A DNA stretch of 45,827 nt, from the NCBI GenBank assembly GCA_947089915.1, contig CAMUMB010000005.1, positions 1-45,827 of the forward strand, read 5' to 3'. The stretch comes from an uncultured Caryophanales bacterium (lineage in GTDB: Bacteria; Bacillota_I; Bacilli_A; RF39; UBA660). The notes beneath the pieces are model-generated. The model saw only the letters and a list, made by a program, of their open reading frames with translations, did not search any database and was not told the DNA's origin. Of this stretch, positions 7,714 to 31,745 are shown piece after piece (position 1 is the stretch's first letter; each line of letters starts with the position of its first letter). The position numbers were made by a program, and so were the translations under genes.

Positions 7714-7722
7714 ATAAATCTC

Positions 7723-9918: not shown

Positions 9919-9944
9919 GGTACCACCACCAAACTATTTATTTC

Positions 9945-11729
9945 TTAAAATCCACCGCCACTACCAAAGGAATCTAATTCTTGTTCTGTTGCGATAATAC
10001 TAATTTGCATTCTTCTACTACCGCAAACAAATAATGCATCTCCCTGATTGTAACGTTTAATATTTTCTTTTTCATTGTCGTTTAAGTCAATCAATTTTGA
10101 CAAATCTTCAACTGCTTGTTTTTTTAGCCCCATTACTAAGTAATAAGAAGCGTTATCAAAGATTGCTTTTCCTTGTGTGATCACACTTGGATCACTAAAG
10201 TCACTTGGTTGTTGTGTAATAATAATTGTTCCCGTATTATATTTTCTAGATCTTCTTTGAATTTGGGCTAAGAAATCAGCTCCTAATGTATTATTCCCAG
10301 AAAGTAAAACATGCGCTTCATCTACCATTAATACGGTATTAACTCTTTTGTCTAAAGTAAGCCCCCAAGCATATTTTAAAATATTGAAAAATAGTGCATT
10401 TCTGATATTAGAGTCTGCATTCATTAATTCACGGATATTGAATACAATAAAATTACTTTGTGGAGCAATTGTTGTATGCCCATCAAAATAATACTTCAAT
10501 TCTTTTACAATTGGACGAATTTTTAACTCTAATTTTTCCATGATATCCTTTTCATGAGTAGGCTCTGTCATAGAAGCTAGGCGACCCTTTATCGTTGCAT
10601 ATACATCTTTGAATGTTGGATAGTCTTCTGAACGGAGATTCGTAAAATCAGATTCAAACCCAATGCTAAAACGTTTATACGTCTCTTGTACGACTTCACT
10701 AAACATATTGAGTACATCTTCTTCAATTTTTGGATCATAATATTTCATAAATGCTTTAATACTTTGTAATGTTCTTGTCAGTACAGTATAGCCAAGTCCA
10801 CTAGCTGCTTCTTCATCATCCGCATCAATAATCACTTCAAGTGGATTTACCATACCATACTCTCCACCTTTTCCAAGGTCGATAAAGTCTCCTCCATAAC
10901 GAGTAGTCATTTCTTCTAACTCTCCTTCTGGATCAATAATCACTAATTGACAATTGTTACGAATATGAGTCCTTAACATCAATTTGGCAGCAGTTGATTT
11001 CCCACTTCCAGAGGTTCCTAGGATAATTAGGTTTGCATTATTTCGATTATGTTCTTTACGAATTTGATATAAGAACTGATTGAATAATATAACTCCTCCT
11101 GAAAAATCGACTCCAAGCAGGGTAGATAAACCAGGGTCTTTGATACTATCAAAGATAAAAGGATACATTGCAGCAATTGTAGGGGCAGGAATTGGTGTTC
11201 CAATGCGAGATTCAATATCTTGTTTAGGAAAAATTGGTAATATCGATTTTAATACTTTTTCCTGTTCAAATCTTAATGGGAAAGCGCGCATTTCCATTGC
11301 CTCTAAATAACTTCTGACCTGTAATTTTTTGCTCGTTAATTCATCTTCGCTATCAGCAGTAATCATAACATGCATTTGAAAGTCGTATATTTTTGCCTGT
11401 GTTGCTGCCAATTGGGAGATAAATTGTTCTAATGATTCATAGTCCTGACGAATTCTTTCTTGTAAGGTACGATCATTGGAATCTTGATATCTCTGCTTTA
11501 AATCGGCAATTTCTTTATTTAGCATTTTACTAATGACACTAAAAGGTAGTGGAATATGTTTAATGACTACTTTAATTCCTGACATACTTGTTAAAGAAGA
11601 AAGATATCCAGGTTGGATGTATTTTGGATAAGATACAACGGTTAATATGGTTGCATATTTATCACTAATAATAAAAGAATTGGATTTAAATTCAAGCCCC
11701 TTTGGAGCAATTTGACTCTTTACATCCAT
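9945..11729 (-). CDS. VirB4-type ATPase, main part with motor domain
   Basis: 594 aa. It begins with DVKSQIAPKGLEF, the boundary that in single-chain Gram-positive VirB4 proteins leads into the linker before the motor. Walker A GTSGSGKST is at 238-246, with Walker B TVLMVDEAHVLL about 466-477 and the GTIIITQQPSDF block after it. VirB4 powers assembly of type IV secretion systems at the inner face of the membrane. The missing N-terminal domain is encoded by the preceding gene, which ends in a TAATG overlap with this start; GGTGGTGG in front can serve as ribosome site. Together the two pieces total 777 residues, near the size of a whole VirB4. Confidence 0.93.
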   Translation of the reverse strand: MDVKSQIAPKGLEFKSNSFIISDKYATILTVVSYPKYIQPGYLSSLTSMSGIKVVIKHIPLPFSVISKMLNKEIADLKQRYQDSNDRTLQERIRQDYESLEQFISQLAATQAKIYDFQMHVMITADSEDELTSKKLQVRSYLEAMEMRAFPLRFEQEKVLKSILPIFPKQDIESRIGTPIPAPTIAAMYPFIFDSIKDPGLSTLLGVDFSGGVILFNQFLYQIRKEHNRNNANLIILGTSGSGKSTAAKLMLRTHIRNNCQLVIIDPEGELEEMTTRYGGDFIDLGKGGEYGMVNPLEVIIDADDEEAASGLGYTVLTRTLQSIKAFMKYYDPKIEEDVLNMFSEVVQETYKRFSIGFESDFTNLRSEDYPTFKDVYATIKGRLASMTEPTHEKDIMEKLELKIRPIVKELKYYFDGHTTIAPQSNFIVFNIRELMNADSNIRNALFFNILKYAWGLTLDKRVNTVLMVDEAHVLLSGNNTLGADFLAQIQRRSRKYNTGTIIITQQPSDFSDPSVITQGKAIFDNASYYLVMGLKKQAVEDLSKLIDLNDNEKENIKRYNQGDALFVCGSRRMQISIIATEQELDSFGSGGGF

Positions 11730-12280
11730 TATGCCACCACCGTTCCAAACGTCGTTGCTTGTCCACCATTTAAGAAATTATCAAGTACAATTCGTAAGTC
11801 ATCATTACTCACCTGATGTGTATTTAACCCAGCACTAGCGAATGCATTAATCAAACTACGAATTCTTTTGGAGATAACCTCATTATTTGATTCCTTAAAT
11901 AATAGAAAGTATTCTGTATCTACAATATTGTTATTCATAAATAAATTGGCTTTATTGATATCTTCCATAATCAATTTTCTTTTTACTTGATCATTTACTG
12001 AATTAAATAACAACTGTAATTGTGATAAATATACATTGATATCTACTGGACGATCCGCAGCAATAATCCAAAATTCATAATCAATTAAATTGTATACATT
12101 TTTTAAATTATTAATGATTGCTGTTTGTGTTTCATAATCTGCGATGAAAATATTTCTTGGCATGATTTTAATTCCACTTACTTTTTCATTGTTATCTAAA
12201 ATAATCATACCATTTGTAATACTTTTCACTGGAACAAATTGTTCTGTATATTTATTTCTTATCTTCTTGTTTTTCTTCAT
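11729..12280 (-). CDS. VirB4 N-terminal domain as a separate protein
   Basis: 183 aa that correspond to the N-terminal domain of VirB4/TraE ATPases (start NKYTEQFVPVKSITNG, then GIKIMPRNIFIADYETQ). No P-loop is present. Its stop overlaps the start of the motor-domain gene as TAATG, which suggests translational coupling and a two-polypeptide VirB4. A single missing base could equally have split one gene; see the finding. Its first 29 bases overlap the end of the PrgI gene, a compact arrangement common in conjugation operons. Confidence 0.8.
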   Translation of the reverse strand: MKKNKKIRNKYTEQFVPVKSITNGMIILDNNEKVSGIKIMPRNIFIADYETQTAIINNLKNVYNLIDYEFWIIAADRPVDINVYLSQLQLLFNSVNDQVKRKLIMEDINKANLFMNNNIVDTEYFLLFKESNNEVISKRIRSLINAFASAGLNTHQVSNDDLRIVLDNFLNGGQATTFGTVVA

Positions 12281-12572
12281 CTAGTATGCACCAACCCTTC
12301 CATACAAATTTTTGTCTTGTTGTAAAGAAATTCCAAACCCCTATTATAACTGTTAGCACATTGTGATAATTGGGAACTGGAAAAACCAAAAACCCTGTTA
12401 TCACTGCTGGCGCAATAGCAATAAAAGCCATTGCCGTATTTGCAATTGGAAGTATCATCATGAGAAGTAATGTAACTCCTACTCCACTTCCAAATAATAT
12501 GAGATCAAATGGGTAAAATAACCCAAATATCATCATTGATTTTTTTGAATTTGCTGGTATCAAAAAATTCAT
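12252..12572 (-). CDS. PrgI family (VirB3-like) membrane protein
   Basis: 106 aa with two to three hydrophobic segments (about 15-35, 36-52 and 54-68) and a short Lys/Glu-rich tail. The start NFLIPANSKKSMMIFGLFYPFDLI and the position directly before VirB4 fit the PrgI family, the Gram-positive counterpart of VirB3, an inner-membrane channel component that works with VirB4. It overlaps the VirB4 N-terminal gene by 29 bases. Confidence 0.8.
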   Translation of the reverse strand: MNFLIPANSKKSMMIFGLFYPFDLILFGSGVGVTLLLMMILPIANTAMAFIAIAPAVITGFLVFPVPNYHNVLTVIIGVWNFFTTRQKFVWKGWCILDEEKQEDKK

Positions 12573-12589
12573 TTATCCATCCCCTTTTA

Positions 12590-14515
12590 TTAGCTATTAG
12601 ATTTTTTCGAATCTTCTTTTTTATACAATGCTTGCCTTTTTTGATAATCAGAAATGCTCTTGCTAATTTTATTGTTTTCTGCTTGTAGCCTAATGTATTG
12701 TAGTGCGTCATCATGAGCCAATGGATCAATATCTCCAAAAGGCTTTGTACTTTCATCAGCAAACATTTTTCTAAGATCAGTTTCTGTAAAGGCTGTTTTT
12801 GTTATGTTAGTAGAAGAATCCGTCCAAGAAATTTTATTGTTATTTTCATCTTTAAATACATAGTTTCCATGTTCATCTACACTTGCAGATGCAAATTTAG
12901 ATAAATTCGTAGCATCTAGTTTAGATGTATATGCTCGCATTTCATAAGCACGATTGGACAAGGCTGTTTGCAAACCTGAAATTGTATTACTAATCGATAT
13001 ATCTCTGTTTTTTGCTTCAGTTTTAATTCCAGCATATCCCTTTAATGAATCTTGAATTCTTGTTCCTAAATTATAATCTGCATCCTGCCTTTTATCCCTT
13101 GTATCACGATTATCTACTGACTTTTTCAGTCCAGGCATAACACCTTTTTTTAATGAATCGTTTTTATAAGCACCTTGTGCACTGTGGATTGCTGCACTAA
13201 TTCCTCCTGCACCTATACCTAATACAGTTCCTACAGCTCTGACAGTTCCTCTTTTGCCACTGCTTTCACCCATAAGAGCTTTTTTCCATCCATCTTTTTT
13301 TGCATTCGATAGTAGCGCTGCAGTATTAGCGGCAATTCCCATTCCGGCTCCTGTAGCTAAAGCTACACCACCTTTCATAACGCCTGTTACTGCTTTTCCG
13401 CCTAAAGCTTGATCTCTAATTTTTTTCATTGGATTTAATGTTAAGTCCCCACTCATCTTAATTCCTAATATATTCTCAATTAATTTTGGAAGTTGTTTTG
13501 CAAATATCAATGCCCCAATGATAAGGAGTAAATCTACCCAAAATTTGTATTTTATTGGTTCTCCATCAATAGTTGCAAGACTTTCTTGACTTACCAGTAC
13601 ACCAATTACATATACCGCAAAAAATAAAGCTAATAAACGAACAAATAAATCTGCCCAAGTTTTTCCAACTTCTTTTACCCATTTCTTGAACATCCCATCT
13701 TTTCCTGATTTTGGATCTACATAGGAAATAATGGGTACTGGAGCTATTATTTGTAAAAAGGCCAGTTTTAATGCCCGTACTGCAACATCAAAACAGAATG
13801 AAACCAGAATTAATAAAACAACAATTCCTACCAATGAAGATATAAAAAATTTATAATCAATTACATAAGTATCCTTCATACCATTCGGGGCACTATTATA
13901 AATACCACCAACCAAATACTTTGATACACCTCCAAGATTTCCTATATCTGTACCAATAGAACAGTATTTATTAAGTTCGGCATCATCTCGCCCTGCTTCT
14001 GGTTGAAAAAATGGTCGAAATATCAATATAGAAATAAAGTCCCCATCGCTCGCTGCCATTGCCATATTATTAGCTGAACATTTATCTGATATTAGGTAAT
14101 AATTTTCTACTCCTAAATCTCCTTCTGTTCCTAAAACAAACTTAGGAATTAGGTCTTCTCTTAAGATAGCACTCTGTGCCTTATATAGCTTGTCAAATGC
14201 AGTTGGAGTTATAATAATCATTACAAGTACCAAAAGAACGTTTAACACTATTTTATGTGCACCTTTTGCCTTATCAGTTATCTGATCTGGATTTACAATA
14301 TAAGTAATAAAGGAGAAGGCTACTTTAAACAACATAATAAGCCCCAATAATGTATATATTTTACTAGAAAACTCTCGAATAGAGTCGGTGCTAAAAACAG
14401 ACACTCTAGATATTTGTTGCAGTATTTCGTAAACCGTAGAAATCAGCGAAAAAACTGTACGATCGATTGCAGCACACAAACCACGCACAGCATCATTAAA
14501 CCATGATTCTGTCAT
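12590..14515 (-). CDS. VirB6/TrbL-type polytopic channel protein
   Basis: 641 aa. The N-terminal 410 residues hold about six to seven membrane segments, including the VLNVLLVLVMIIITPTAF and LVGIVVLLILVSFCF blocks and the ALKLAFLQIIAPVPIISYVDP motif typical of TrbL/VirB6-like proteins of Gram-positive conjugation systems. A Gly/Ala-rich segment (GGVALATGAGMGIAANTAAL) precedes a hydrophilic C-terminal tail of about 220 residues that is probably cytoplasmic. VirB6 proteins line the membrane channel. A GGGAGGTG site precedes the ATG, and the gene follows the secreted VirB2-related protein by about 15 bases. Confidence 0.87.
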   Translation of the reverse strand: MTESWFNDAVRGLCAAIDRTVFSLISTVYEILQQISRVSVFSTDSIREFSSKIYTLLGLIMLFKVAFSFITYIVNPDQITDKAKGAHKIVLNVLLVLVMIIITPTAFDKLYKAQSAILREDLIPKFVLGTEGDLGVENYYLISDKCSANNMAMAASDGDFISILIFRPFFQPEAGRDDAELNKYCSIGTDIGNLGGVSKYLVGGIYNSAPNGMKDTYVIDYKFFISSLVGIVVLLILVSFCFDVAVRALKLAFLQIIAPVPIISYVDPKSGKDGMFKKWVKEVGKTWADLFVRLLALFFAVYVIGVLVSQESLATIDGEPIKYKFWVDLLLIIGALIFAKQLPKLIENILGIKMSGDLTLNPMKKIRDQALGGKAVTGVMKGGVALATGAGMGIAANTAALLSNAKKDGWKKALMGESSGKRGTVRAVGTVLGIGAGGISAAIHSAQGAYKNDSLKKGVMPGLKKSVDNRDTRDKRQDADYNLGTRIQDSLKGYAGIKTEAKNRDISISNTISGLQTALSNRAYEMRAYTSKLDATNLSKFASASVDEHGNYVFKDENNNKISWTDSSTNITKTAFTETDLRKMFADESTKPFGDIDPLAHDDALQYIRLQAENNKISKSISDYQKRQALYKKEDSKKSNS

Positions 14516-14530
14516 TTATTTGCACCTCCC

Positions 14531-15589
14531 TTAGAATAATGAGCAAAATAAGTCATTTCGTTCAATTCCGTATGGAACCAACACCCCACTCATATCAATA
14601 ATAAATGTTAGTAGCATTGGCAAGAATATAATAGTAGCCCCAATTAAGAGTCTTTTTACAAATTTTGACCCTGCTGCTTTAAAATTTTTGTCTTCACCAG
14701 ATAATACAATCCCAGTAAAATCAATAATAGTTAGTATAACAATAATAATTGGAATGGCAAGCTGAATCAAATCTATTGCTGCTTTGATCATATCACCCAA
14801 TTCCTCTCCTAGAATTGCACATTTTTTTGCATTTTCTATATTATCATTACCTGAGATATCAATTGGATCCGTTGATGTTCCTAACTCACTTGCTGATGTA
14901 ATTGAGCCTAATAAGTTTAATTGTGTCAATCCTCCATTATTATTGTTCAAATAAAAGTTCCATATATTACTTCTTGTTTGATCTGTCACATATAACTGTG
15001 CAGGACATGCATTGTTTAAATCTTGAACCGTAAAATTGGAATTGGCTGTTATATTATCTTCATCCTTGTTTAAATTTGTATTAACTGTATACGAATATTT
15101 TGTTTGAATTTTTATCTCAGTATTATTAAAATACATAAATACATCCCCATAATTGCATTTATGCGTATATTTATCATTAAAATCATCACGCGTATAAGTT
15201 GCGGATTTACTACTTACAAGTGAAAATTTTTCTGAATCTCCACTAGATATAGTAGCATAATATGAATAATAAGGAAAACTATTATTTATTGTTCTTGTTC
15301 TATAGATATTTTGAAGACAAGATAATTTATTGTCAGTAGTCAAAAAATTATAATAAGATAAATAAAACTCATGTTTTCCTACAGAACTACGAGATCTGCC
15401 TGTCCCTGTACTGTTTCCAGAAATTTCCTCAAGTTCTAATTCATAATTACTATTAAGTTTTACATGTACTTCACTATTACCTGCCTTATACACGCATACT
15501 GCAGAGGTATCAAGTGCCCTTATTTCCCCCACATTACAAATAAATAATAAAATGGATAAAAGAAATATATTTCTTAATGTTTTTTGCAT
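14531..15589 (-). CDS. Secreted-domain protein with VirB2-like C-terminal helices
   Basis: 352 aa. A signal peptide (about 1-25) is followed by an extracellular region of about 240 residues, rich in Ser, Thr, Asn and Tyr with scattered Cys, and then two membrane helices at about 270-345. The helical module (IPIIIVILTIIDFTGIV, then SGEDKNFKAAGSKFVKRLL) aligns by eye with the downstream 113-aa VirB2-like protein. This looks like a VirB2-type module carrying a large surface domain. It could be a minor pilin, a channel cap or an adhesin. It is the gene immediately before VirB6 in transcription order. Confidence 0.75.
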   Translation of the reverse strand: MQKTLRNIFLLSILLFICNVGEIRALDTSAVCVYKAGNSEVHVKLNSNYELELEEISGNSTGTGRSRSSVGKHEFYLSYYNFLTTDNKLSCLQNIYRTRTINNSFPYYSYYATISSGDSEKFSLVSSKSATYTRDDFNDKYTHKCNYGDVFMYFNNTEIKIQTKYSYTVNTNLNKDEDNITANSNFTVQDLNNACPAQLYVTDQTRSNIWNFYLNNNNGGLTQLNLLGSITSASELGTSTDPIDISGNDNIENAKKCAILGEELGDMIKAAIDLIQLAIPIIIVILTIIDFTGIVLSGEDKNFKAAGSKFVKRLLIGATIIFLPMLLTFIIDMSGVLVPYGIERNDLFCSLF

Positions 15590-15696
15590 ATAATCACCTA
15601 AACTTAAATTTTCACAAATACATTATAACATAAAAAAAAATAATAAGAAATATAATCTTATTACTTTTGGCTTTTTTATTAATATTATTTACTGGT

Positions 15697-16038
15697 TTAT
15701 TTACATGCACTATAGTCATTAATAAAACAGTTTAAACAACTTGCCTCACCAGAGTTGTTTTTATCTAATACACCAAATATCCATTGTACGATTGCAAAGA
15801 TAAAGAAAATCAATACTGCATATAATACTCTTTTAATTAATTTCGTTTGAGCACCTTTCATTTCTTTTTCATCATTAGACATAACAGCTTTTCCTAAATC
15901 AATCATACCAAAAACGACTAATAAAATTGGAACTCCAATTTTAATAATATTTACTACCGTATTAACAGTTTGAGGAATAATTTCATCAATTGATCCTGAT
16001 AATCCATTACATTTAATCAAATCTAATACTTCTAACAT
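15697..16038 (-). CDS. VirB2/TrbC-like two-helix protein (putative T4SS pilin)
   Basis: 113 aa from the ATG at 16038, which has a textbook AGGAGG site 7 bases upstream; an upstream ATG at 16071 lacks this. Two membrane helices (about 36-54 and 76-98) flank a charged loop (SNDEKEMKGAQTKLIKR), the plan of VirB2/TrbC pilins and of small channel proteins in Gram-positive conjugation loci. Cysteines near both ends might form disulfides. It is separated from the next gene by about 100 bases of A/T-rich DNA without a clear terminator. Confidence 0.75.
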   Translation of the reverse strand: MLEVLDLIKCNGLSGSIDEIIPQTVNTVVNIIKIGVPILLVVFGMIDLGKAVMSNDEKEMKGAQTKLIKRVLYAVLIFFIFAIVQWIFGVLDKNNSGEASCLNCFINDYSACK

Positions 16039-16126
16039 TTTAAAACCTCCTATAATTCTTATTTGAAACAAGGAAACTTGCTTCTTTCTTATTCACTATA
16101 CCCTTTTTTCCTTTTTTTGTCAATGT

Positions 16127-17134
16127 TTACTTACTAAATAATCCTAAAATACTATTTTTCTTCTCTTGCTCATCGGTTTTTTGACGTGTAAAGCCTAATC
16201 TTACCAACAACAGATTGAGTGCATGTATACTTTTTTCTCTTTCGTCTAACGGTGGCATATTATAATAGATTTTAGATCCTGACTCATATTCAAAATCAAG
16301 CACATCTTTTGCATTTAATAAACTTTGATTTAAAATAATCTTCTTATTTTTTAGTTCTTTAAATGCATTGCTATTGATTAACATTAACTTATTCAACTTA
16401 ATAATGGATGGTTCTACTAAGTAAAGAACCTCATCACAAAAGCCTTCCGCTTCTTTGCTATCGTTGATATCAATTAATATGGCATTGTAATCTCTATATT
16501 TTGCGATTGCATTCCCAATATCTGTATTTGGAATAGAGATTAACTTCTTATCATTGAAATAGCGAAAATCACTTTTGTTTACTTCTAATGCAATGACAGA
16601 ATAATTTTTCTCTAATTGTTTTACCATCATATAAATTAATGTGGTTGCTCCTGATTGTTTGGTAACATTTTTCACACCAATAATCTTATGTGTCACAACA
16701 GGCTCTGTTACCTCTACATATTTTTCTACTACAACATCTTGCACTTTATTTGCGTCCAATTGATGAATGTGAGCAACATCACGGTAAGTATTAGGATTAT
16801 TGTATAGATACATAATTCCTTCTATGTTTTTCGTAAAATTATAAATTCCCATAGAAATCAATTTTGATAAGTAATCATTTGAACCACTTTCTTCGGAGTC
16901 ATCTAGCAATAGTATTACTTTATCCATATCTAGGGAGATAGATAACCTTTGTAATGTTTTAATATCTTTATAATTTTTAAGAGCTGTAATATCCAAAATC
17001 ATTCTCTGAAAAAAGAAATTTTGAAACTGCGCAATGATATCATCGACAGAAAATTCGCCTTCTAAAGTTTTAATTACATCAATTTCTAATCCTTGTAACA
17101 TTGCTTTTTGTTTATTTGCTATAATTACGTTCAT
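16127..17134 (-). CDS. TadZ/CpaE-like ParA-family protein with eroded P-loop
   Basis: 335 aa. Residues 1-120 resemble an atypical receiver-like domain, as in TadZ/CpaE. Residues 150-320 follow the ParA/MinD fold: IIGVKNVTKQSGATTL is where the deviant Walker A should lie (about 156-165), followed by VIALEV, a later YNAILIDIND strand (Walker B-like) and LVEPSIIKLNKL. The catalytic lysines and glycines of KGGVGKTT are mostly lost, leaving K-x-SGATT, so ATP binding may be weak or absent. TadZ proteins place Tad pili at cell sites. Here the gene lies with the pilin-like genes inside the T4SS-like operon rather than beside tadA, which links the two operons. Confidence 0.72.
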   Translation of the reverse strand: MNVIIANKQKAMLQGLEIDVIKTLEGEFSVDDIIAQFQNFFFQRMILDITALKNYKDIKTLQRLSISLDMDKVILLLDDSEESGSNDYLSKLISMGIYNFTKNIEGIMYLYNNPNTYRDVAHIHQLDANKVQDVVVEKYVEVTEPVVTHKIIGVKNVTKQSGATTLIYMMVKQLEKNYSVIALEVNKSDFRYFNDKKLISIPNTDIGNAIAKYRDYNAILIDINDSKEAEGFCDEVLYLVEPSIIKLNKLMLINSNAFKELKNKKIILNQSLLNAKDVLDFEYESGSKIYYNMPPLDEREKSIHALNLLLVRLGFTRQKTDEQEKKNSILGLFSK

Positions 17135-21703: not shown

Positions 21704-22489
21704 TTAAAAATTCATCATCTGCATCATTGCAAATAATAACAATAACAAGATCCCACCACCAGTTGTAACTAACATTGTCATTGTCTTATTTTCCATTGTA
21801 TCCAAACGATTTTTGTATTTCTGTTCACGTGCCTTATTTTGTAATGTAGATACGGTTCTTGCAAATAAAACGAGTTGTTCTTGTTTGTTTTCTTGTGATC
21901 CTAATCCAAGACGATATAACAAACGCATCATTCGCATGGAATCCCTAACAGGATATTCTTTCGCAAAATCCATATAAGGATTTACGCTAGAATCACCTGC
22001 CTCGATTTTTGTAATCAATTTTTCAAGTCCTGGTTTAAAAATCTCAGGTGCGGTATCAATGGATCTACGGATTGCAACTGGTACTGTATAGTGTTGTACT
22101 AAGATTTCCAAACTTTTTAGATAATATGGTAACATTTGATTAATTTTATTTAAATTTGCTTTATAATACTTTTGTAAACTTGTATATGGTAATTTAAATA
22201 CCAAAAATCCTAGAATGACTGCAAACAATATATTTACAAAGGAAGGATTAGAAAGCATGAAAATGAATATGATAAATACAATTACAACTAAACCGTTGCG
22301 CAAACGTTTTGAAAATTCACGGTTGACATCTACTTCATTTCCATGACGTACCGTTAGTAAAAATTTATAGTCATCTTCCATTAGGAATCTGAAATATGGT
22401 TCTGCATCTGTTAAAAACTTTTGTGTATCAATTTTCTTGTTATACTCTAATACAAATAAAATGATTAGTGCGATTAAAATAAATTCCAT
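21704..22489 (-). CDS. tadC: TadC-like pilus platform protein (T2SSF family)
   Basis: 261 aa with membrane helices near 1-15, two around 70-105 and one at the extreme C-terminus, separated by a cytoplasmic helical domain (LPYYLKSLEILVQHYTVPVAI and the SMRMMRLLYRLGLGSQENKQ region). This is the plan of TadC, which with TadB forms the inner-membrane platform on which the TadA ATPase acts. Its ATG overlaps the tadB stop as TAATG, indicating coupled translation in a fixed ratio. It is last in the operon, before the terminator. Confidence 0.78.
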   Translation of the reverse strand: MEFILIALIILFVLEYNKKIDTQKFLTDAEPYFRFLMEDDYKFLLTVRHGNEVDVNREFSKRLRNGLVVIVFIIFIFMLSNPSFVNILFAVILGFLVFKLPYTSLQKYYKANLNKINQMLPYYLKSLEILVQHYTVPVAIRRSIDTAPEIFKPGLEKLITKIEAGDSSVNPYMDFAKEYPVRDSMRMMRLLYRLGLGSQENKQEQLVLFARTVSTLQNKAREQKYKNRLDTMENKTMTMLVTTGGGILLLLLFAMMQMMNF

Positions 22490-23391
22490 TACTCAGCCCC
22501 CACATTCTCATTGTAATATTTCTCACCTGATAATAAGAAATAAGTATTGATAATAATAATTGCGTGCAATAACAGTTGAACCAAACCATTGTCTAATAAT
22601 TTAATATAAGATTCTACCCCTAATAAAAACTGAACCAACATAACCATTAAATATAAAATAACACCAAATTGTAAAAACTTTTTATGGAATTGTGCTCTGT
22701 CCAAACGGTCTCTATAAACATTTTCCACCAACATATCAATATCTAGTGACATGTTTTCTAATGCATCACTTGAGTTTTTTGAACCCTCATTTGTAATTTG
22801 TAAGAATAATTGATGCATATTTTTTACGATAAAATAATCATATTTTTGATTCATAAATTGAATAGATTGTTCAATAGTACCATTTTCATAAGCAAGATCA
22901 ATCATTGTTTTGACATCTGATCTTACAGGATCTTCTAATACACCTGATTCATAAACACCTTCTAGTGCTTTGATAAAGGATTGTGTTGTCGCAAATTCCA
23001 TAATGGTATTGGTAGTATATACTTGAATTTGTTCAAAGATAAATTCACTGTAAATTCTTTTACATCTTAGATAAGTAAGGTAAGGAATCGTAATAACAGC
23101 AACTACCGCATACACAACTGATAATAATAAATTATAGAAATATAAATATGAAATTACAGCTGCCACAACGGCAAATATGATTACTTGTAATGTATATTGT
23201 TTTTTGGTATATTCCTGTCCAAGCTCTTTTACTTTTTCTCTTACTTCTTTAAAAGAATAAGGAGCATACTTATCATAAACATTTCCTACTTGTTTTGATA
23301 CATATTTATAGACATTTGTTCCTGCACTATTTCGGTAAGCAAGAATAAATATAATGACAAAAGCAATTAGGATAAATACGAATATTTCCAT
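22489..23391 (-). CDS. tadB: TadB-like pilus platform protein (T2SSF family)
   Basis: 300 aa with one N-terminal helix, a helix pair around 70-108, a cytoplasmic helical domain (IMEFATTQSFIKALEGVYESG, then DVKTMIDLAYENGTIEQS) and a C-terminal helix pair about 240-290. This matches TadB of the Tad/type II secretion F family. It sits between tadA (13 bases upstream) and tadC (1-base overlap), the standard A-B-C order. Confidence 0.78.
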   Translation of the reverse strand: MEIFVFILIAFVIIFILAYRNSAGTNVYKYVSKQVGNVYDKYAPYSFKEVREKVKELGQEYTKKQYTLQVIIFAVVAAVISYLYFYNLLLSVVYAVVAVITIPYLTYLRCKRIYSEFIFEQIQVYTTNTIMEFATTQSFIKALEGVYESGVLEDPVRSDVKTMIDLAYENGTIEQSIQFMNQKYDYFIVKNMHQLFLQITNEGSKNSSDALENMSLDIDMLVENVYRDRLDRAQFHKKFLQFGVILYLMVMLVQFLLGVESYIKLLDNGLVQLLLHAIIIINTYFLLSGEKYYNENVGAE

Positions 23392-23404: not shown

Positions 23405-24523
23405 TTATTCATATGAAATATTTTGATTTGTGGTTACTTGTTGTTGATTGTTCACATTATTTTGTGAAGTTGCTTGTATTACATTAGGTGATAAAATAAC
23501 ACCTTGTGAATCTAGGTAATCAAGTAAATATTTAGAAGGTTGATTTCTAATAACTTTACCTGATGTTGATTTTTGATAAATTGTATTATATTTCGCTTCA
23601 TTGTTCTCTGTTACATAGAATTCTGTTACTTCGGCAATTTCACGGACAAAACGTTTGGTTTCTTTATCTTGATATCCACGAATATAAACGCCTATTTGGA
23701 TATAACGGTAAATTGTTTTTAAGAATTGGTCAATATCTTGGCTTGTCTCTAACAAGCTATACATACGATGTGGAATAGAAGATGCTTTATCTGCATGAAT
23801 TGTAGATAAAATGTAGTGTCCAGATGAAATAGAGTTACGAACTGCCATTACTGCTTCTGCACTACGTACTTCGGATAATAATATCCACTTTGGATTTTGT
23901 CTCATACAAGTTACCAATACATCTGTATATGAAGCTATATTATTGGTTTTCATCGCAACGATATCACGATGTGGAAAAATTCGGTCTAAATGAAGTTCTA
24001 GTGTATCTTCCACTGTAATGATCTTCTCATTTTCTCTCGTATGAGAAGCTAAGTATTTAATAAATTCGGTCTTACCTGAACCAGTTTCCCCACATACAAT
24101 AATATTGCAATGTCCTAAAACACACTGTATTAGAAAATCATGGATATCTAAATCAACGTATTTGTCTTGTAACAATTTGTCTTTCTCAAGTCTTATTTTG
24201 GCTGGAGTTTTACGAATTACACAAGCAATTCCATTACGAGCAATGGACTCATGAATAAAATTGAGACGTAATTCAGCACCCTCTGCATCCAAGAAGGGAT
24301 GTGCCATATTGAATGACTTTCCCATTACATTGGAACATTGAAATGCTAATTTTTCCATTAATGCATCATTAATATCTGGATTTTCAACACGAAAATTTCC
24401 TTTGGATAATGTTTTTAAATGAATTTGTCCACCATTACTGTAGGAAATATCAGTAATGTCATCATCCTCTAAATAAGGTTTGATAGGCCCAAAATCAATT
24501 TGGGAGAACATATTATCATTCAT
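23405..24523 (-). CDS. tadA: TadA/CpaF-type secretion ATPase
   Basis: 372 aa. Walker A GETGSGKT lies at 145-152, with the Asp box ITVEDTLEL, a Walker B region (PKWILLSEVRSAEA) and the His box GHYILSTIHADKA. These define the VirB11/GspE/TadA hexameric ATPases, and the context with CpaB, TadB and TadC places it in the TadA/CpaF branch. It powers pilin polymerisation at the inner membrane. The C-terminus is an Asn/Gln-rich tail. Note that the T4SS-like operon has no VirB11 of its own, which fits Gram-positive systems but also allows sharing. Confidence 0.9.
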   Translation of the reverse strand: MNDNMFSQIDFGPIKPYLEDDDITDISYSNGGQIHLKTLSKGNFRVENPDINDALMEKLAFQCSNVMGKSFNMAHPFLDAEGAELRLNFIHESIARNGIACVIRKTPAKIRLEKDKLLQDKYVDLDIHDFLIQCVLGHCNIIVCGETGSGKTEFIKYLASHTRENEKIITVEDTLELHLDRIFPHRDIVAMKTNNIASYTDVLVTCMRQNPKWILLSEVRSAEAVMAVRNSISSGHYILSTIHADKASSIPHRMYSLLETSQDIDQFLKTIYRYIQIGVYIRGYQDKETKRFVREIAEVTEFYVTENNEAKYNTIYQKSTSGKVIRNQPSKYLLDYLDSQGVILSPNVIQATSQNNVNNQQQVTTNQNISYE

Positions 24524-24526: not shown

Positions 24527-25336
24527 TTAACCTTCTACTTGCCCCATTGCTGCAGTTAATTCATCATTTGGAACAGTATTGGCATTGATAAAGTCTCTTA
24601 AAGTTTGTGAACTTACCATAGTGCTTCCCTCTGGTACTACCGCAGTTCCACCATGTGGTACTGGGAATAATTCAGCTGAGAAAGCAGTCATGTATTTTCC
24701 TTTTAATAATAATACGTTAATTTCTGGTTGTACTCCAAAGATTAAACTACTTGGTGTACGAGCTTCATCGCTATTTTCAAATACATTTCTTCCTGCAGAA
24801 TCTTTTACAGCTAATACTTTTACGTTTTCTACTAATTTACCAACCATAAGCTGTCCATTTTCATTTACAGCTTTCATGTAAATATCAATGTAATTTCCAG
24901 GAAAAATTGAATTTCCATAAGTTTTATCCATTGTAACAGCCATATTGTAAGGAACTTCTCCATCGGCTACTTCCACAAATGCGGAATCTGGTAAATCAGC
25001 TTCATTTACTACAACTCCACTATAGAACATACTTCCTTTTGGAATTACAGTATTGTAGTTGCTATATTTACCAATCACAAATGCGGATGAACGAATTACG
25101 TTACTCTGTAACACAACTGGTGCTACATCGACATATTCGATCATGTCAGATGTAATTCTTGTTCTTGGTTGAATGGTCTGTGCTGCTACTGGTATTCTTC
25201 TCACTGGATTTACCATTCTGTTAATTTGGATACGATATCCAAAAAATAGGACTAAGATAATCGCGATTACTCCAATAATCGTAACTGTGTTTTTGTTTCT
25301 AAAAAATCTTTTTAATGCAATCATAAAATTATTCAT
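24527..25336 (-). CDS. cpaB: CpaB/RcpC-like SAF-domain pilus assembly protein
   Basis: 269 aa. One membrane helix (about 17-34) is followed by a SAF domain (PVAAQTIQPRTRITSDMIE, then the FVIGKYSNYNTVIPKGSMF block) and a C-terminal beta-rich domain (AVTMDKTYGNSIFPGNYIDIYM). CpaB/RcpC proteins sit outside the membrane and help assemble or stabilise Tad pili, perhaps by binding the cell wall. It lies 3 bases before tadA. Confidence 0.82.
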   Translation of the reverse strand: MNNFMIALKRFFRNKNTVTIIGVIAIILVLFFGYRIQINRMVNPVRRIPVAAQTIQPRTRITSDMIEYVDVAPVVLQSNVIRSSAFVIGKYSNYNTVIPKGSMFYSGVVVNEADLPDSAFVEVADGEVPYNMAVTMDKTYGNSIFPGNYIDIYMKAVNENGQLMVGKLVENVKVLAVKDSAGRNVFENSDEARTPSSLIFGVQPEINVLLLKGKYMTAFSAELFPVPHGGTAVVPEGSTMVSSQTLRDFINANTVPNDELTAAMGQVEG

Positions 25337-25352: not shown

Positions 25353-25754
25353 TTAATATGGTGTTTCTAAAATCGCATCCAATCGATTGGAAATATCAAA
25401 ATCGATAATTTCTTCTGTGACATTGGACTGTAATTTAGTGGAAACCCTCAAACTTACTTTTGGAGGTGTTTCATTTACATCATATATTTCAACTTTATAA
25501 GTATTTCCTATGGTTACACTTTCTGCAAACCTCCTTATAAAGTTTTCAACAAATTTTTCACGATCGATACGAACAGTACCGGTTCTACGATAAGAGGCTA
25601 AGTCAACAGCGTCATACATAGCCGCTTCTGTAATTTCTTTTAATAAGATATAGTTTTGTTCATCTGTATTGGTGACATTTTGGAAAAAGAAGATAAAAGC
25701 AACTGATGTAACACCAAGTAAGATGACAAATATACCCCAAAACGATTCTTTCAC
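25353..25754 (-). CDS. Pseudopilin/TadE-like single-helix protein
   Basis: 133 aa. Starts MKESFWGIF and has an N-terminal membrane helix (about 6-25) and a soluble domain with two helices (EITEAAMYDAVDLASYRR; DREKFVENFIRRFAESV) and strands. The shape fits TadE-like pseudopilins, and the position before cpaB supports it. Its MKES start and helix recall the 140-aa protein of the other operon, although the soluble domains differ and cysteines are absent. Confidence 0.62.
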   Translation of the reverse strand: MKESFWGIFVILLGVTSVAFIFFFQNVTNTDEQNYILLKEITEAAMYDAVDLASYRRTGTVRIDREKFVENFIRRFAESVTIGNTYKVEIYDVNETPPKVSLRVSTKLQSNVTEEIIDFDISNRLDAILETPY

Positions 25755-25766: not shown

Positions 25767-28700
25767 CTAACTTTCTGAACATGCATAGAAATCACTATGC
25801 TGACTTGAGCCACATACACTTTCATTTTTTTGAATTCCATATATTTCGTTTCTTACAAATTCTTTACTAATACATGCAACCCCATTGGTATCACAATCTA
25901 AGGTGAAGTCTGCATAACCCTCATTATTTTCACGAGAATCATTATATTTACGTATTTCTTTAATGGTATTGGTATCTAATATAAAGGTATAAAGTGGATC
26001 TTTCTGATAAACGGCGTTACCCTCTACACCACGGTTTTTTAATATTTGGGTTTCTACTAATTTTACACTATTCCAGTTTGATCCTGGATATCTTCCTATA
26101 TGTGGATCTAGACTAAACTTATTGGTAGTATTACCTACTCCTGAGCCAGCTGTTTTCCCTGGGAATGGATTTCTAAGTGAAATAGTTCTATAAATGATGT
26201 TAATTCCACCATAAGGACAAACAGTATCCTGACAAATTTTAACTGCCTCATCTTTCGAATATCCTGAACTCATATAACTAAATACACAAGGTTTAATATT
26301 CATTCCATCATTATATGTTCCATGTGGACAATGGAAATCCTCATTTATATTACATAAGGTACTCACACAATAATCGTAGCTTTTTCCATTATTTAAACAA
26401 GAAGTAATTTTAATCGTTCTATCATTTGGACAAAACTTGTCATCCTCACATACTTCGTCAAATGTCTCGTCACTATCACAATATAAAATTTGAGCATCAG
26501 CACACGTAATCGTTGTAGAACTACTATTAGATCCATATATCTTACAATATAAATCTTTTCCTGCATGTTTTGTTCCCTCTGGGCAAACACACTCATCAGT
26601 AGGTGCATTTGTTACAGAATAATTACATACATATGGATTTTGATTCGCAAGTTCTGTAAATTTTCCGTTTTCTCCTAAACTATTTACTGTAATATTTAAG
26701 TCATATGGATTCTTTACACTTGCTGTAGAAGATATTGGTAAATTACTATATCCAATTTTAATATAGTCAACAGTTGGGATACTCATTGATGGTTTATTTG
26801 TTCTTTTCTCTACATAATGATATAAATTGTCTGGTAAAGAATAGGTTGCGGTTGCTGTAATTGTAATTGGTCTATCTTCAATTAATCGCACGATCTGTTG
26901 AAATTGAGCCCCTAAGCCTATGCGAGATGGCAAATCAGAAATTGTATAAGTTTTTAAAACATCTGAATGTTGACGTACATACTCTGTTGCGTCACATCCC
27001 TCACATCCAAAACTCTGACCTGACAACTTTAGTTGATGGGTTGTTCCATATTCTGGATCATTATATGACATAGATGTATCACTTTCAAAAGAATATAAGT
27101 CAGATGGATCCCATTTTGTTTTTCCTGCATATACAATATTGTTTAAAAATTCGGTTGCCCCATTATATGCATTAATATAGTTTTTACAAACATTAATTTT
27201 AGCATTAATAGCATTTAATTCGTTCTGCTTTTTATTCACTAATGCTTCACGTTGACTTTTTTCATTATTAGTACATGTAGATGTTGTTGTTGTAACATTA
27301 TTAGTTGGATATGCGCCATCGCAATAATTTATACAATCAGTGTATGTTTCTGGAGTATGAGGAGTGTTAGCACATGCAACTTTACAATTATTTCTACCTT
27401 CAGAATTTTGATCTACTGTATTGGTTACTGTTGTACATTTATCTAACTCAGCTCTTGCTTCTTCTAATTCTCTCTGGCTTTTTAATTGTTGATCTCCATA
27501 TGCACGATCTCCAATAAATGCGCAAGCATCTTCGGTTGCAAGTCCTTTGCTATCTATTTTTCCTCTTGCCGCAAGTGTTGTTCTTATATTTTCAAGTTCC
27601 CATACATAATCAATACCCCTAACTGTTTGGTTTATGTTATTTATATGTGCTTGGAACGTTTCTTCCATATTTTCATCAGACTTTGTATTTGGTGAAAACT
27701 TAATTTTACAAGTTTTGATTCCTTCATAACTTAAAGAATATAAATTACCCCATATTGTATTTAATGTTGCTGTAGATGTTGGCCACACAATGTGTGTTCC
27801 AACAGGTACTGGGTTAGCAATGCCCCCAGGATAATATTGATATGCTTCCTCTTTGCAGTATAACCATGCAACACTTCCGTCTCCAATCATTCTTGTGGGT
27901 TCTCCGTCCTCACTCGCGTTGCCACACTCGCTTCCATCTAATTCTTGCCAATAATGTCCAACGTGTGTTTGATTATCATTTGCACAAACTGCAGGTGTTC
28001 CTATAGTTTTTAATACACCACCTCTACAAACAGGAGCTGGTGGCTCAGAGCAAAAATGTTCTTTACATGCTTCTTCATCCATATTGCCACAATCTGATAA
28101 GTAGTGCGCATTTCCATTATTATCTGTACAAACATAATCATTGGCATCATCAGGACAATATTGAGTTGCACACTCAACACGACATTCCGTCATTTTACTT
28201 GGGTTCCCATTCATACAACTAGTGACACAACTTGTAATATCGACATCCTGCATGGTTGGATCTGTGCATGTTATATTTTGCGGACAATACAAACTTTTAC
28301 AATAATTTTCTTCCTTGCCACTATTCACACAAGAAGTAATATCATGCGATACATTATTTACATCTGTACAAGTCTTTTTTTCTGTACAAGGATCACCAGT
28401 AATAATTGTTAAAAAGCGTTGATAGTATCCTCCATTTTTATGATGATAAAAATAAAGATTTCCCATATACATTGTTCCTATATTTAATATTTTTTCAAAG
28501 TCATCTATAGCTTCTTTTGTTAAATTTTGACTTTTATCATTACTATAATGTCTAACTTCAACATAATAACTCATCAATGCATTTGACACATTTCCTTTAA
28601 ATAAAGTTTTATCAAAACCTGACATTCCATCTGCTCTTAGCCAAAAATATACTTGAGTGACTAGATATTTTACCTGTCCTATTTCACTACCTAAATTCGC

Positions 28701-29000
28701 ATTTAATATATATTGAACGGCTCTTCTATCTCTATCATTTATTATTAACGGTAATTGATTATTATTTCTATAATATGCATTTTTCGTTGGGTCGACACTA
28801 TATCCTGGGTTTAAACATAATGCTACAGCAGAACTCTTACTATCTGATATTTTTTCAATATACAGAGTTTTTTTACTATTTTTATAACTAAACTCTATTT
28901 GCGTCTTTCTGGGCTCTAGTGTCGCACAAAAATCTTCCGCCCCTACATTCACTGTAAACACTGCTAAAAAGATAGTAAATGCTATTAATATTTTTTTCAT
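25767..29000 (-). CDS. Giant cysteine-rich secreted protein with probable thioester domain
   Basis: 1077 aa with a signal peptide (about 1-21). Residues 22-190 look like a Cys-Gln thioester (TQXA) domain: AVALCLNPG with Cys62 and YLVTQVYFW with Gln116 match the two halves of that signature. Such domains bind host or matrix amines covalently. The rest carries many cysteines in loose repeats; a DITSCVNSG or KITSCLNNG-type motif occurs at least three times. Stretches rich in CTD, YCP and CPNG follow, with a helical region near 470-600. There is no LPXTG motif or C-terminal membrane helix, so it is either released, held by the pilus or bound to the 214-aa partner encoded upstream. It is probably the tip adhesin or a large pilus component. 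Confidence 0.7.
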   Translation of the reverse strand: MKKILIAFTIFLAVFTVNVGAEDFCATLEPRKTQIEFSYKNSKKTLYIEKISDSKSSAVALCLNPGYSVDPTKNAYYRNNNQLPLIINDRDRRAVQYILNANLGSEIGQVKYLVTQVYFWLRADGMSGFDKTLFKGNVSNALMSYYVEVRHYSNDKSQNLTKEAIDDFEKILNIGTMYMGNLYFYHHKNGGYYQRFLTIITGDPCTEKKTCTDVNNVSHDITSCVNSGKEENYCKSLYCPQNITCTDPTMQDVDITSCVTSCMNGNPSKMTECRVECATQYCPDDANDYVCTDNNGNAHYLSDCGNMDEEACKEHFCSEPPAPVCRGGVLKTIGTPAVCANDNQTHVGHYWQELDGSECGNASEDGEPTRMIGDGSVAWLYCKEEAYQYYPGGIANPVPVGTHIVWPTSTATLNTIWGNLYSLSYEGIKTCKIKFSPNTKSDENMEETFQAHINNINQTVRGIDYVWELENIRTTLAARGKIDSKGLATEDACAFIGDRAYGDQQLKSQRELEEARAELDKCTTVTNTVDQNSEGRNNCKVACANTPHTPETYTDCINYCDGAYPTNNVTTTTSTCTNNEKSQREALVNKKQNELNAINAKINVCKNYINAYNGATEFLNNIVYAGKTKWDPSDLYSFESDTSMSYNDPEYGTTHQLKLSGQSFGCEGCDATEYVRQHSDVLKTYTISDLPSRIGLGAQFQQIVRLIEDRPITITATATYSLPDNLYHYVEKRTNKPSMSIPTVDYIKIGYSNLPISSTASVKNPYDLNITVNSLGENGKFTELANQNPYVCNYSVTNAPTDECVCPEGTKHAGKDLYCKIYGSNSSSTTITCADAQILYCDSDETFDEVCEDDKFCPNDRTIKITSCLNNGKSYDYCVSTLCNINEDFHCPHGTYNDGMNIKPCVFSYMSSGYSKDEAVKICQDTVCPYGGINIIYRTISLRNPFPGKTAGSGVGNTTNKFSLDPHIGRYPGSNWNSVKLVETQILKNRGVEGNAVYQKDPLYTFILDTNTIKEIRKYNDSRENNEGYADFTLDCDTNGVACISKEFVRNEIYGIQKNESVCGSSQHSDFYACSES

Positions 29001-29012: not shown

Positions 29013-29657
29013 CTAAAATAGGCTACTTTTTTTATTATATCGATAAATTATAATAATTCCACCTACAATAAATATTGGTAAAACAATATAATAATAATTT
29101 AAATAGAATTCCAATATATAATCATATATTCCTTCAATATTCTCTTCTTCTTTTTTTTCAATTGGCTTTTCTTCTACTAATTTTAAACTATTTACTTTTT
29201 CTTTAAATTGTTCATAATTAAGATTAATTCTTGTAAATTTTTGACACAATTCGTTTTCTTCCATTCCAATACATACCTCATCTTGATAAAATGGATTGTA
29301 TGGTGGAGTTGTTACATAATGAGAATATAACAAATCATTTCTACAATATATATCATTTGTGTAAACATCAAATCGATAACTTGTATTTGATCTTAAATTA
29401 TAAATTGTAATCTCATTACCTTGATAATTATAGGTTTTATCGTTTTTTGTATCTTTTATGATAAAACCCTCTGGAATATTGGATAGCGTAATTTGAAATG
29501 AAATACGTCCATTTTCTTCGGTATAAGTATAACTAGATGTAATATTGCTCGCTAATGTTTGATATTTTACTTTATCCTCATTGGAACAAATAATTGCCTT
29601 CGTTTGAAACGGCAATAGTAAAATAAATAACCCTAAAAGAATTGGCAGTCGTTTCAT
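29013..29657 (-). CDS. Signal-peptide surface protein with C-terminal membrane anchor
   Basis: 214 aa. A signal peptide (about 1-21) leads to an extracellular domain with a FN3-like strand pattern (GRISFQITLSNIPEGF, then NLRSNTSYRFDVYTN) and several cysteines, a Glu/Lys-rich linker, and a membrane helix (about 187-206) with a short Lys-rich tail. It is first in the operon and 12 bases before the cysteine-rich giant, so the two probably work together at the surface. The family is not recognised. Confidence 0.68.
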   Translation of the reverse strand: MKRLPILLGLFILLLPFQTKAIICSNEDKVKYQTLASNITSSYTYTEENGRISFQITLSNIPEGFIIKDTKNDKTYNYQGNEITIYNLRSNTSYRFDVYTNDIYCRNDLLYSHYVTTPPYNPFYQDEVCIGMEENELCQKFTRINLNYEQFKEKVNSLKLVEEKPIEKKEEENIEGIYDYILEFYLNYYYIVLPIFIVGGIIIIYRYNKKSSLF

Positions 29658-29729: not shown

Positions 29730-31313
29730 TTATTTTACAACAATTTGGTAGATATACTCACGAAATGTGAAAGAAATTGTAATATGTTCTGCATATTCTA
29801 GTTCTTTTGGCACTTCAATGTAATATACATTTCCCTCTGTCTGTCTATTTGGTTTTACCTGTTTCAAATTATGTATCGTTTTTTCTTCCCCATTTATTTC
29901 ATACGTAATCATTCCAAAATCTTTGATTACACTATATAAATCAGATAACTTATGAATATAAGAATTTTCATCTAATGTAAAATTTCCAACCAATTTCATT
30001 AATGTTTTATCATAATTATCACTCATACTTGGTTTAATGTACTCTACTCCTGTAAGACAATTATTATCTGTAATACAATAAATGTAATTATTGATAAAAG
30101 TATCCCCTATTTCATAAGAATCTATCTTGACTTTACTCTTTTTTAAAATACTTTGTGTAAGTGATATCTCTCCACCTAATAAATAAGAAGCAGTGGTTTT
30201 TGTTGAATCATCAATTGGTGTAATCAATGTTTCAATTACTTTATCATTTTTATCTTGATATTTTAAAATTATTTTTTCTGTATTCAATTCTTTTGGTAAT
30301 TCATAGACTAGTATATATGGTTCAAATGTAGTTGTCATATATTCATTATGATAAATATTTCCAAGATCATACATTACTTCTTTGTAATTATCACTTGCAT
30401 GAAAAGAAGTATTTCCAATCATTAAAGTAAAACGAGATGGATTAAATACTTTCTTATTTACCTGATAATTCGAACGAATTTGATATTGAATCACCAAAAA
30501 CTTTTTATCCTTTTTAATTTCTTCATTATGATAACTTCTTGTTGTAAGATAACTATTTTCTATATTTATCATAAATTCGGTTGTCGTAAATGCTTCATTC
30601 TGTTTATATATTTTATGATATACTCCTACATTTAAATAAACAACTGCACAAATAACAGCAATAACAAGTAAGGCAATCATATGGATCATAAACTTATTTT
30701 CTATATATACATATTTCGCATGTCTTATTTTTTTACGTATATTTCTTTTTAATTGATCCGTATCTAATTCTACGTCTATTTCAAATTCTTCATTATCTTC
30801 AGATGCGATTTTTAAATCTTCTAAATCCTGATCAAAATCAAATTTTTTAATATTAAATCCTGTTGCACGCATTGCAACTACAATTAAACTTAGTGATTGT
30901 ACAATTAATGCGAATAAGCAAAGATCTTGCATTATTTTTAGGGTTCTTATACTCAGTAAGCCAGATTCTAATATTTTGATATTGGTATAACAGTATATAA
31001 ATACAAATGTCATAAAACTATATACAAATATATTGAATACATAAAAGCGAATTGGCTTTTTTTTGAAACTCATTAGTCCTAAAATAACAAATGTTAAAAT
31101 AAGTACACCAATAATAACAATTATCATAATAGGTGAAAATAAATTAGATGTAATGTTGGTTCCAATGGTAGATAAATTTGAACTCATATATTCGCTAATG
31201 AATCTGAAAATCGTATTGGTTTTGAGCAATAAATATACAATCATAATTGTTAAGGTAAAATGAATTACTTTGAAATACTTAATTAAAAATGCAAATGGTT
31301 TTCTAAATAACAT
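29730..31313 (-). CDS. Polytopic membrane protein with large extracellular domain
   Basis: 527 aa when started at ATG 31313, which has an AGGAAGGTGG site; an open frame extends 45 codons further upstream but lacks a ribosome site. Five membrane helices lie in the first 150 residues, then a charged cytoplasmic stretch (DQDLEDLKIASEDNEEFE), another helix (HMIALLVIAVICAVVYLNV) and about 290 extracellular residues with beta character and a Cys pair (ITDNNC). I do not recognise a family. It points the same way as the tad operon and ends 72 bases before its first gene, so a supporting role is possible but not shown. TATACT lies just upstream near 31340 as a possible -10. Confidence 0.65.
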   Translation of the reverse strand: MLFRKPFAFLIKYFKVIHFTLTIMIVYLLLKTNTIFRFISEYMSSNLSTIGTNITSNLFSPIMIIVIIGVLILTFVILGLMSFKKKPIRFYVFNIFVYSFMTFVFIYCYTNIKILESGLLSIRTLKIMQDLCLFALIVQSLSLIVVAMRATGFNIKKFDFDQDLEDLKIASEDNEEFEIDVELDTDQLKRNIRKKIRHAKYVYIENKFMIHMIALLVIAVICAVVYLNVGVYHKIYKQNEAFTTTEFMINIENSYLTTRSYHNEEIKKDKKFLVIQYQIRSNYQVNKKVFNPSRFTLMIGNTSFHASDNYKEVMYDLGNIYHNEYMTTTFEPYILVYELPKELNTEKIILKYQDKNDKVIETLITPIDDSTKTTASYLLGGEISLTQSILKKSKVKIDSYEIGDTFINNYIYCITDNNCLTGVEYIKPSMSDNYDKTLMKLVGNFTLDENSYIHKLSDLYSVIKDFGMITYEINGEEKTIHNLKQVKPNRQTEGNVYYIEVPKELEYAEHITISFTFREYIYQIVVK

Positions 31314-31745
31314 AATCCACCTTCCTATTCTAATATATAGTATATCGTAAAATAGATTAAAAAAAAAGTATTTTTTAAAAGTACAATTTATTTTATTATA
31401 GACAATCATAAACATTTTTCTTACCCATTTTATGTAAATAAATGCCAATTTTTGAATTAAGGGATGAAAATATTAATGCTTTTATACTTTCAATGAACAA
31501 AAATGCCGAAAAACATAATTTTGTTTAGTACATAAAACAAAATTGCCAGCAAATGAAAAAATAGCATAGATTATTCTGATAGTATGTGAAGGATATTTAT
31601 CTAAAATTAGATTATTCTATGATTGAGACATAATGAGAGTTATAAGGATTAGAAAAATATACAATAAATCTGATTGTAGGCATAGTACACAATATGTTAT
31701 ACTTAATATGTAAAAGTATACATTTAGAAAAAGGTGGCATAAAAT
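31314..31745. other. Intergenic region between divergent genes
   Basis: About 430 bases of A/T-rich DNA between a minus-strand and a plus-strand gene. I see the ribosome sites and candidate promoter elements of both neighbours and no convincing coding sequence, RNA gene or repeat. On the plus strand TTGTAG (31674-31679), 18 bases, TATACT (31698-31703) may serve the 31746 gene. The inverted pair TATACTT (31698-31704) / AAGTATA (31714-31720) covers its -10 and could be an operator. Confidence 0.5.

Follow-up and report, generated by a model that had tools for sequence, protein, structure and literature searches.

We analysed a stretch of 45,827 nucleotides (hereafter the window), which is one entire contig (CAMUMB010000005.1) of a 1.27-Mb draft genome, 91% complete, of an uncultured Caryophanales bacterium, and found that it encodes a secreted, cysteine-rich protein of 1077 amino acids (aa) with an N-terminal thioester domain (TED) beside genes for a Tad-type pilus. 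The gene (25767..29000), taken from the list of open reading frames (ORFs), opens with an ATG and lies on the minus strand, as do all its features given below. The protein begins with a Sec-type signal peptide of about aa 1-21 (MKKILIAFTIFLAVFTVNVGA; 28938..29000), recognised by hydropathy and with an estimated cleavage site, which is followed directly by the TED (aa 22-205; 28386..28937). An earlier note on this DNA, made from its sequence alone, had described loose cysteine repeats, and the description holds. There are 51 cysteines, none of them in the signal peptide, and a strict pattern search for the module C-x(10-14)-C-x(7-17)-C-x4-C returned four copies (aa 211-239, 28284..28370; aa 291-317, 28050..28130; aa 857-883, 26352..26432; aa 891-928, 26217..26330), whereas 2000 shuffles gave 0.12 copies on average and never more than 2. 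Three copies of the core '[IV]TSC[VML]N-G' are present, at aa 221, 259, and 865. The nearest relative, in an uncultured 'Bacillales' metagenome assembly, is 92% identical over the 1077-aa protein and was the only very near relative returned by a contig search.

Neither a sortase motif nor a membrane anchor is present, as the earlier note had stated: an LPXTG-like motif is absent from the 1077-aa protein, and its sole hydrophobic segment (aa 4-22) is the signal peptide. Near the C-terminal end of 47 relatives, an LPXTG-like motif and a membrane segment were each found in 0/47. Two sortases are encoded elsewhere in the source genome, so the absence of LPXTG is not due to want of a sortase. A Pfam scan gave no CnaB/SpaA match in the protein, which has the cysteine modules there instead. 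No VKOR match was found in the source genome, though proteins with about 25 possible disulfides are encoded.

TEDs are the 'chemical glue' domains by which streptococci bond covalently to host proteins, and residues 22-205 are a divergent, class-I-like TED on the evidence of sequence profiles, hhalign, AlphaFold, and Foldseek. The comparisons drew on slot proteins, that is, proteins encoded like this one between the gene for a 214-aa protein and the DUF5411 and CpaB genes. A six-sequence profile of slot N-termini, run against 386 genomes of the family, matched canonical TED proteins (E 5e-9 to 1e-3); many of its short matches fall on sites found independently with PF08341, and 9 of 10 fetched proteins exceed the Pfam TED cut-off, most of them carrying SpaA repeats. 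By hhalign, eight slot N-termini aligned with 30 reference TEDs, picked by PF08341 alone, at a probability of 93.7 and a score of 53, whereas 50 column-shuffled versions scored 17 at most; the alignment pairs Cys with Cys and TQxxW with TQxxW. A PDB sequence search with the domain profile placed SaTIE-TED (E 0.069) and 5a0g (0.4) among unrelated chains, which is not significant alone.

The structure predicted by a second AlphaFold model points in the same direction. This model was built on 30 sequences, among which canonical TEDs of the family covered the first half of the domain, and reached a mean predicted local distance difference test score (pLDDT) of 91 and a predicted template modelling score (pTM) of 0.89. 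It places the Cys in a strand, TQVYFW in helix 2, and Gln194 in the final hairpin, and the slipknot insert of class II is missing, with domain helix 133-153 running straight into the hairpin. Foldseek against 350,542 PDB chains gave as its best match the N-terminal TED of Cpa, an S. pyogenes pilus-tip protein (4c0z, E 7.5e-4, probability 1.00), and ranks 1-3 are all TEDs, from Cpa and the thioester-isopeptide-ester (TIE) protein of S. aureus (6fx6, E 0.04; third). Structure prediction, which the earlier note had named as a check, thus supports a TED rather than refuting it.

Comparison of the key residues indicates which glutamine would form the bond. The thioester cysteine of known TEDs lies in the motif [YFL]C-Phi-zeta (PMC4450167), and the predicted thioester Cys62 (LCLN; codon 28815..28817), invariant in alignments A4 and A5, is where the domain's predicted strand E36-41 ends. 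Gln116 (28653..28655) belongs to TQVYFW on predicted helix 85-102 (helix 2); alignment, model, and literature mark this as the TQxxPhiW motif, whose Gln is conserved and not bond-forming, since the bond still forms when the Gln or Trp is mutated (PMC4450167; PMC6194298). Gln194 (28419..28421) lies in YYQRFL, where YQRFL fits Phi-Q-zeta-Phi-Phi, in the predicted closing beta hairpin, and it is invariant in ten homologues. Across ten pilus-linked N-termini, the invariant positions are Cys62, Gln116, Trp120, and Gln194. The Cys62-Gln194 spacing of 132 residues is near the CpTIE value (129; SfbI and PnTIE have 152-153). On motif and conservation, the thioester Gln is most likely Gln194, a predicted assignment. 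The earlier note had proposed a thioester adhesin domain bonded through Cys62 and Gln116: both residues stand where it placed them (VALCLNPG and LVTQVYFW), and the domain and Cys62 are borne out by profiles and model, while Gln116 was rejected as the bonding residue because it lies in a motif of which neither Gln nor Trp is required for the bond, and Gln194 is conserved.

If one cysteine (Cys62) is unpaired and all others are paired, an odd number of cysteines is expected in the mature protein. Our initial count was odd in 7/8 TED-bearing and 8/32 other slot proteins (Fisher p 0.002). One odd protein first scored as non-TED (L047) was then recognised as a TED bearer at E 2.7e-9 by a profile that excluded it; after it was moved, the count was odd in 8/9 TED-bearing proteins and 7/31 others (24/31 even; Fisher p 0.0006), and with about one TED bearer per genus it was odd in 5/6 compared with 7/31 (p 0.009), in each case with related sequences that are not independent and with estimated signal cleavage. 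A homologue split across two contigs (G138) also has an odd count (35) and was left out of the test. Odd parity, as a sequence count, points to one cysteine outside disulfides and is supporting, not decisive; the odd or even count offers a cheap test for a reactive Cys in disulfide-rich proteins. A further slot protein (L071:9537-12500) has an odd count and an N-terminal AYCVDPG and gave no TED profile match; it is possibly a more distant TED.

Several observations weigh against the TED and its predicted bond. Scanned whole against Pfam and NCBIfam, the protein gave nothing at E<=1, and the PF08341 cut-off was reached neither by it (no match at E<=1) nor by the domain alone (none at E<=10). 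No pilus-linked homologue scanned with Pfam had a TED match, and a domain-only scan gave chance matches. The hhalign alignment spans only the Cys-to-Trp half of the domain. A first AlphaFold model, from eight pilus-linked sequences only, reached pLDDT 75 and pTM 0.77, and Foldseek of this model against the PDB gave no TED match; the canonical TEDs in the alignment of the second model may bias it toward the TED fold, and it is not independent of the profile line. The assignment of Gln194 is based on motif, conservation, and a predicted strand, and one TED-bearing homologue (L136) has an even cysteine count. As judged by sequence, then, the domain is a divergent relative of TEDs below Pfam recognition, not a Pfam-recognised member. 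The profile match in homologues to which the earlier note had looked did not appear in Pfam, and kinship was found only by profile-profile and reverse searches.

The rest of the protein is shared more widely than its head. Homologues occur in 5/5 genomes of the genus and, by single-sequence search, in 41/145 genomes of the family. The C-terminal domain (25770..26339; IYRxIxL-PFPG-GRxPGxNW-NNRGV-PLY-IRxYN-DF-C-CxSxF), a candidate docking part, is present in 47/47 slot proteins; it has no relative in the PDB, and among 245 sampled genomes of the phylum it was confined to this same bacterial family (f1). By comparison, 10 of the 47 slot proteins, from five genera, carry the TED. Identity within the genus is about 28% for the N-terminus and 41-66% for the rest. 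In a TadA-TadB-TadC-CpaB tree (FastTree, no support test), the TED bearers are split between two positions and are interspersed with non-TED relatives. A variable N-terminus on a constant C-terminus is, at the sequence level, what one would expect if a fast-changing adhesive head sat on a base that stays constant. A second, commoner type of head, which starts with 'G-R-T-VD--G' and is not a TED, was seen in about a dozen slot proteins, within the first 300 aa of L059, L064, L065, L069, L058, and others.

The gene for the 1077-aa protein belongs to a region (4955-31448) in which Tad-type pilus and type IV secretion genes form one syntenic cluster across many genomes of the family. The Tad genes were identified by profile for TadA and CpaB, and by position and shape for TadB, TadC, and Flp. 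On the minus strand, the cluster starts with a 572-aa multi-pass membrane protein (29730..31448; ORF list, hydropathy) and the 214-aa protein (29013..29657), for which hydropathy predicts a signal peptide, an extracellular part, and a C-terminal membrane helix, and which hydropathy and synteny make a candidate anchor or partner. Its gene lies 12 bases upstream of the giant gene and holds the same position in most loci. One locus (L040:2566-14646) has three tandem giants with 214-aa-type genes between them, and two others (L057 and L062) have two giants each; the co-duplication of giant and 214-aa-type genes suggests that the two proteins may work as a pair. Downstream on the same strand, in what the earlier note had rightly called the tad operon, follow a DUF5411 protein with one N-terminal hydrophobic helix and a minor-pilin-like shape (25353..25754; PF17424 E=5e-54), a CpaB/RcpC-like protein (24527..25336; PF16976 E=9.4e-7, TIGR03177 E=2.4e-8), a TadA-type ATPase (23405..24523; PF00437 E=3.1e-27), and TadB-like and TadC-like membrane proteins (22489-23391 and 21704-22489, together 21704..23391), which are assigned by position, size, and synteny and have no Pfam family of their own above the cut-off. 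In one relative, the DUF5411-matching ORF (L060:7051-8577) has 508 aa rather than the usual 133 or so and is perhaps a fusion.

The next genes of the minus strand encode a Flp-like 60-aa pilin (18057-18239) and two minor-pilin-like proteins (17587-18036 and 17153-17575), each with one N-terminal hydrophobic helix and a place in the conserved order that suggest its family, and a 335-aa protein that would be TadZ by its conserved position (16127..17134; no Pfam match). The type IV secretion set (4955..16071; Pfam and conserved order) comprises a putative VirB2-like protein (15697-16071), a 352-aa relative (14531-15589), a VirB6/TrbL-like protein (12590-14515; Pfam TrbL_4), a putative VirB3-like protein (12252-12572), a 183-aa protein (11729-12280), a VirB4-like protein (9945-11729; Pfam AAA_10), a CHAP/SpoIID hydrolase (7723-9918; Pfam CHAP, SpoIID), and a VirD4-like coupling protein (4955-7072; Pfam TraG/VirD4 7e-57), with which the cluster ends in the window. 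In most loci with intact flanks the order is 572-aa, 214-aa, giant, DUF5411, CpaB, TadA, TadB, TadC, Flp-like, two minor-pilin-like, TadZ-position, and VirB2-like, and the VirB6-, VirB3-, VirB4-like, and CHAP genes continue it where the sequence reaches that far. A prepilin peptidase is encoded elsewhere in the genome. Between TadC and the Flp-like pilin, this locus and L044 have a gene for a YfhO/PgfM-like membrane glycosyltransferase (18316-20730; PF09586 E=7e-154), not present in most relatives; the enzyme might glycosylate the pilin or the adhesin. Among papers naming Tad and VirB genes, no title pointed to a Tad and type IV secretion cluster of this kind (titles only).

Known examples of thioester adhesins come from sortase-anchored proteins, sortase pili, and one conjugation operon. 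The domain resembles the class I TEDs (PF08341; Cpa, a pilus-tip adhesin of S. pyogenes and the best structural match, SfbI, and CpTIE) in the order of the fold, the Cys motif, TQxxPhiW on helix 2, Phi-Q-zeta-Phi-Phi in the closing hairpin, the Cys-Gln spacing, and the N-terminal position behind a signal peptide. In contrast to them, the window protein lies below Pfam recognition, has no LPXTG, and is encoded in a Tad cluster rather than a sortase-pilus operon; its stalk is disulfide-rich, whereas class I TED proteins have isopeptide or ester domains. It likewise lacks both the isopeptide and ester stalk domains and the LPXTG of the LPXTG-anchored TIE proteins. TIEpLS20 (p34 of the conjugative plasmid pLS20) is likewise a TED adhesin whose gene lies next to those of a type IV secretion system and whose anchoring is not settled (PMC8092201), but it has a class II TED and a CnaB stalk, is plasmid-borne, and is accompanied by no Tad genes. 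Tad tip complexes (TadE/F/G, Myxococcus KilL/M/N) also involve a large disulfide-containing protein with a variable exposed domain adjoining Tad genes, and they set a variable tip on a constant base (PMC12075869). Like TadG/KilN, the window protein is encoded in a Tad locus near small minor pilins; however, TadG and KilN are minor pilins that begin with an alpha1 helix and vary at the C-terminus, while the window protein has a Sec signal and then a TED, lacks a pilin helix, and varies at the N-terminus, its C-terminus being constant. Its domain is a divergent TED for which both the genetic setting and the protein architecture are new. In the literature we found no earlier description of a TED in a Tad setting, and Tad pili, Firmicutes, and thioester were not found together, in a search that left most subscription journals outside. 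The second conserved glutamine (Gln194), the family-wide C-terminal domain, and the type IV secretion set in the same cluster go beyond the earlier note.

We propose, with a probability of roughly 0.72, that the protein is a secreted adhesin with a Cys62-Gln194 thioester in its TED, covalent capture of a target, a disulfide stalk, and C-terminal docking on the machine of its cluster. The proposal is supported by domain homology, the predicted fold, the conserved residues, the common C-terminus, and the conserved cluster; thioester formation, covalent target binding, disulfide pairing, and the mode of display are what we infer. Residues 22-205 would fold in a class-I-like manner, an internal Cys62-Gln194 thioester would arise on folding, and a disulfide between Cys25 and Cys205, which flank the fold, may clamp the domain. 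A nucleophile on the target surface, such as a lysine, would receive Gln194 as a stable amide, resulting in covalent adhesion, and the other 48 cysteines would pair as disulfides to give a protease-resistant stalk. The C-terminal domain would dock on a machine of the same cluster, which may be the Tad-type pilus or its minor pilins, the secretion channel, or the membrane protein of 214 aa; Tad tips with variable domains (PMC12075869), the conjugation adhesin TIEpLS20 (PMC8092201), and the TED at the tip of the Cpa sortase pilus offer precedents. Display on the pilus or via the 214-aa neighbour, as the earlier note had suggested, is plausible from the gene arrangement, and what bears on it is conserved gene order and co-duplication only. 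Tentatively, the TED protein might be an exchangeable, covalently bonding tip, carried by a Tad-type pilus that can retract or by a machine that combines Tad and type IV secretion; if so, the cell could pull on a bond that does not give way.

The protein might instead serve the type IV secretion part and fasten donor to recipient cell, for mating-pair formation or effector delivery, rather than pilus to host. VirD4-, VirB4-, VirB6-like, and CHAP/SpoIID genes lie downstream in the same conserved order, and TIEpLS20 is a precedent for a TED adhesin needed for conjugation, with Cys68 essential (PMC8092201). However, no relaxase was recognised among the window proteins searched, the giant gene is nearest to the Tad genes, and in this family the cluster appears to be a conserved part of the chromosome, with no match in a plasmid collection, which leaves this role possible but rather unlikely. 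It is similarly doubtful that the giant is held by its single-pass 214-aa neighbour, or released, with no physical link to pilus or secretion machine and with co-location reflecting co-expression. The signal peptide and C-terminal membrane helix of the 214-aa protein, its gene directly upstream in most loci, and its duplication along with the giant in L040 would suit such a holder, but nearly every locus with intact flanks keeps the slot between the 214-aa gene and DUF5411/CpaB, which suggests that the giant is tied to the machine as well. A TED-like fold without a thioester, in which Cys62 and Gln194 are structural and binding is non-covalent, would fit a domain sequence so far from characterised TEDs; yet both residues are invariant despite only about 28% domain identity within the genus, and the odd parity indicates one cysteine outside disulfides, so we regard this as improbable. 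That the protein has no TED at all, being secreted and disulfide-rich with Cys and Gln motifs that arose by chance, as the Pfam negatives and the first structure model might be read, is very improbable given that the reverse profile search, hhalign with its controls, the second model, and the Foldseek ranking all favour a TED.

The adhesin that we propose would bring the same chemistry, below Pfam detection, into Tad-type clusters of uncultured small-genome Bacilli, in a protein without a known anchor, and it suggests that such pilus clusters bear exchangeable adhesive heads. Cys62 and Gln194 make a short list of testable residues. TED surveys relying on PF08341 miss this group. The LPXTG TED-SpaA proteins of the same family (e.g., L137 and L138) share an N-terminal TED with it, and distant kinship was found in both search directions, but they have a class-II-like spacing and a location outside the Tad cluster and, where complete, carry SpaA repeats and LPxTG. 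The source genome itself encodes a Pfam-recognised TED protein of this group (L052:16324-17475, on G000:C13; AYCLQPF, ITQLMIW) followed by SpaA-like repeats and cut by the contig end. In a relative, a 975-aa ORF (L146:1879-4806) combines a TED, SpaA repeats, and a C-terminal sortase domain, which is an unusual fusion.

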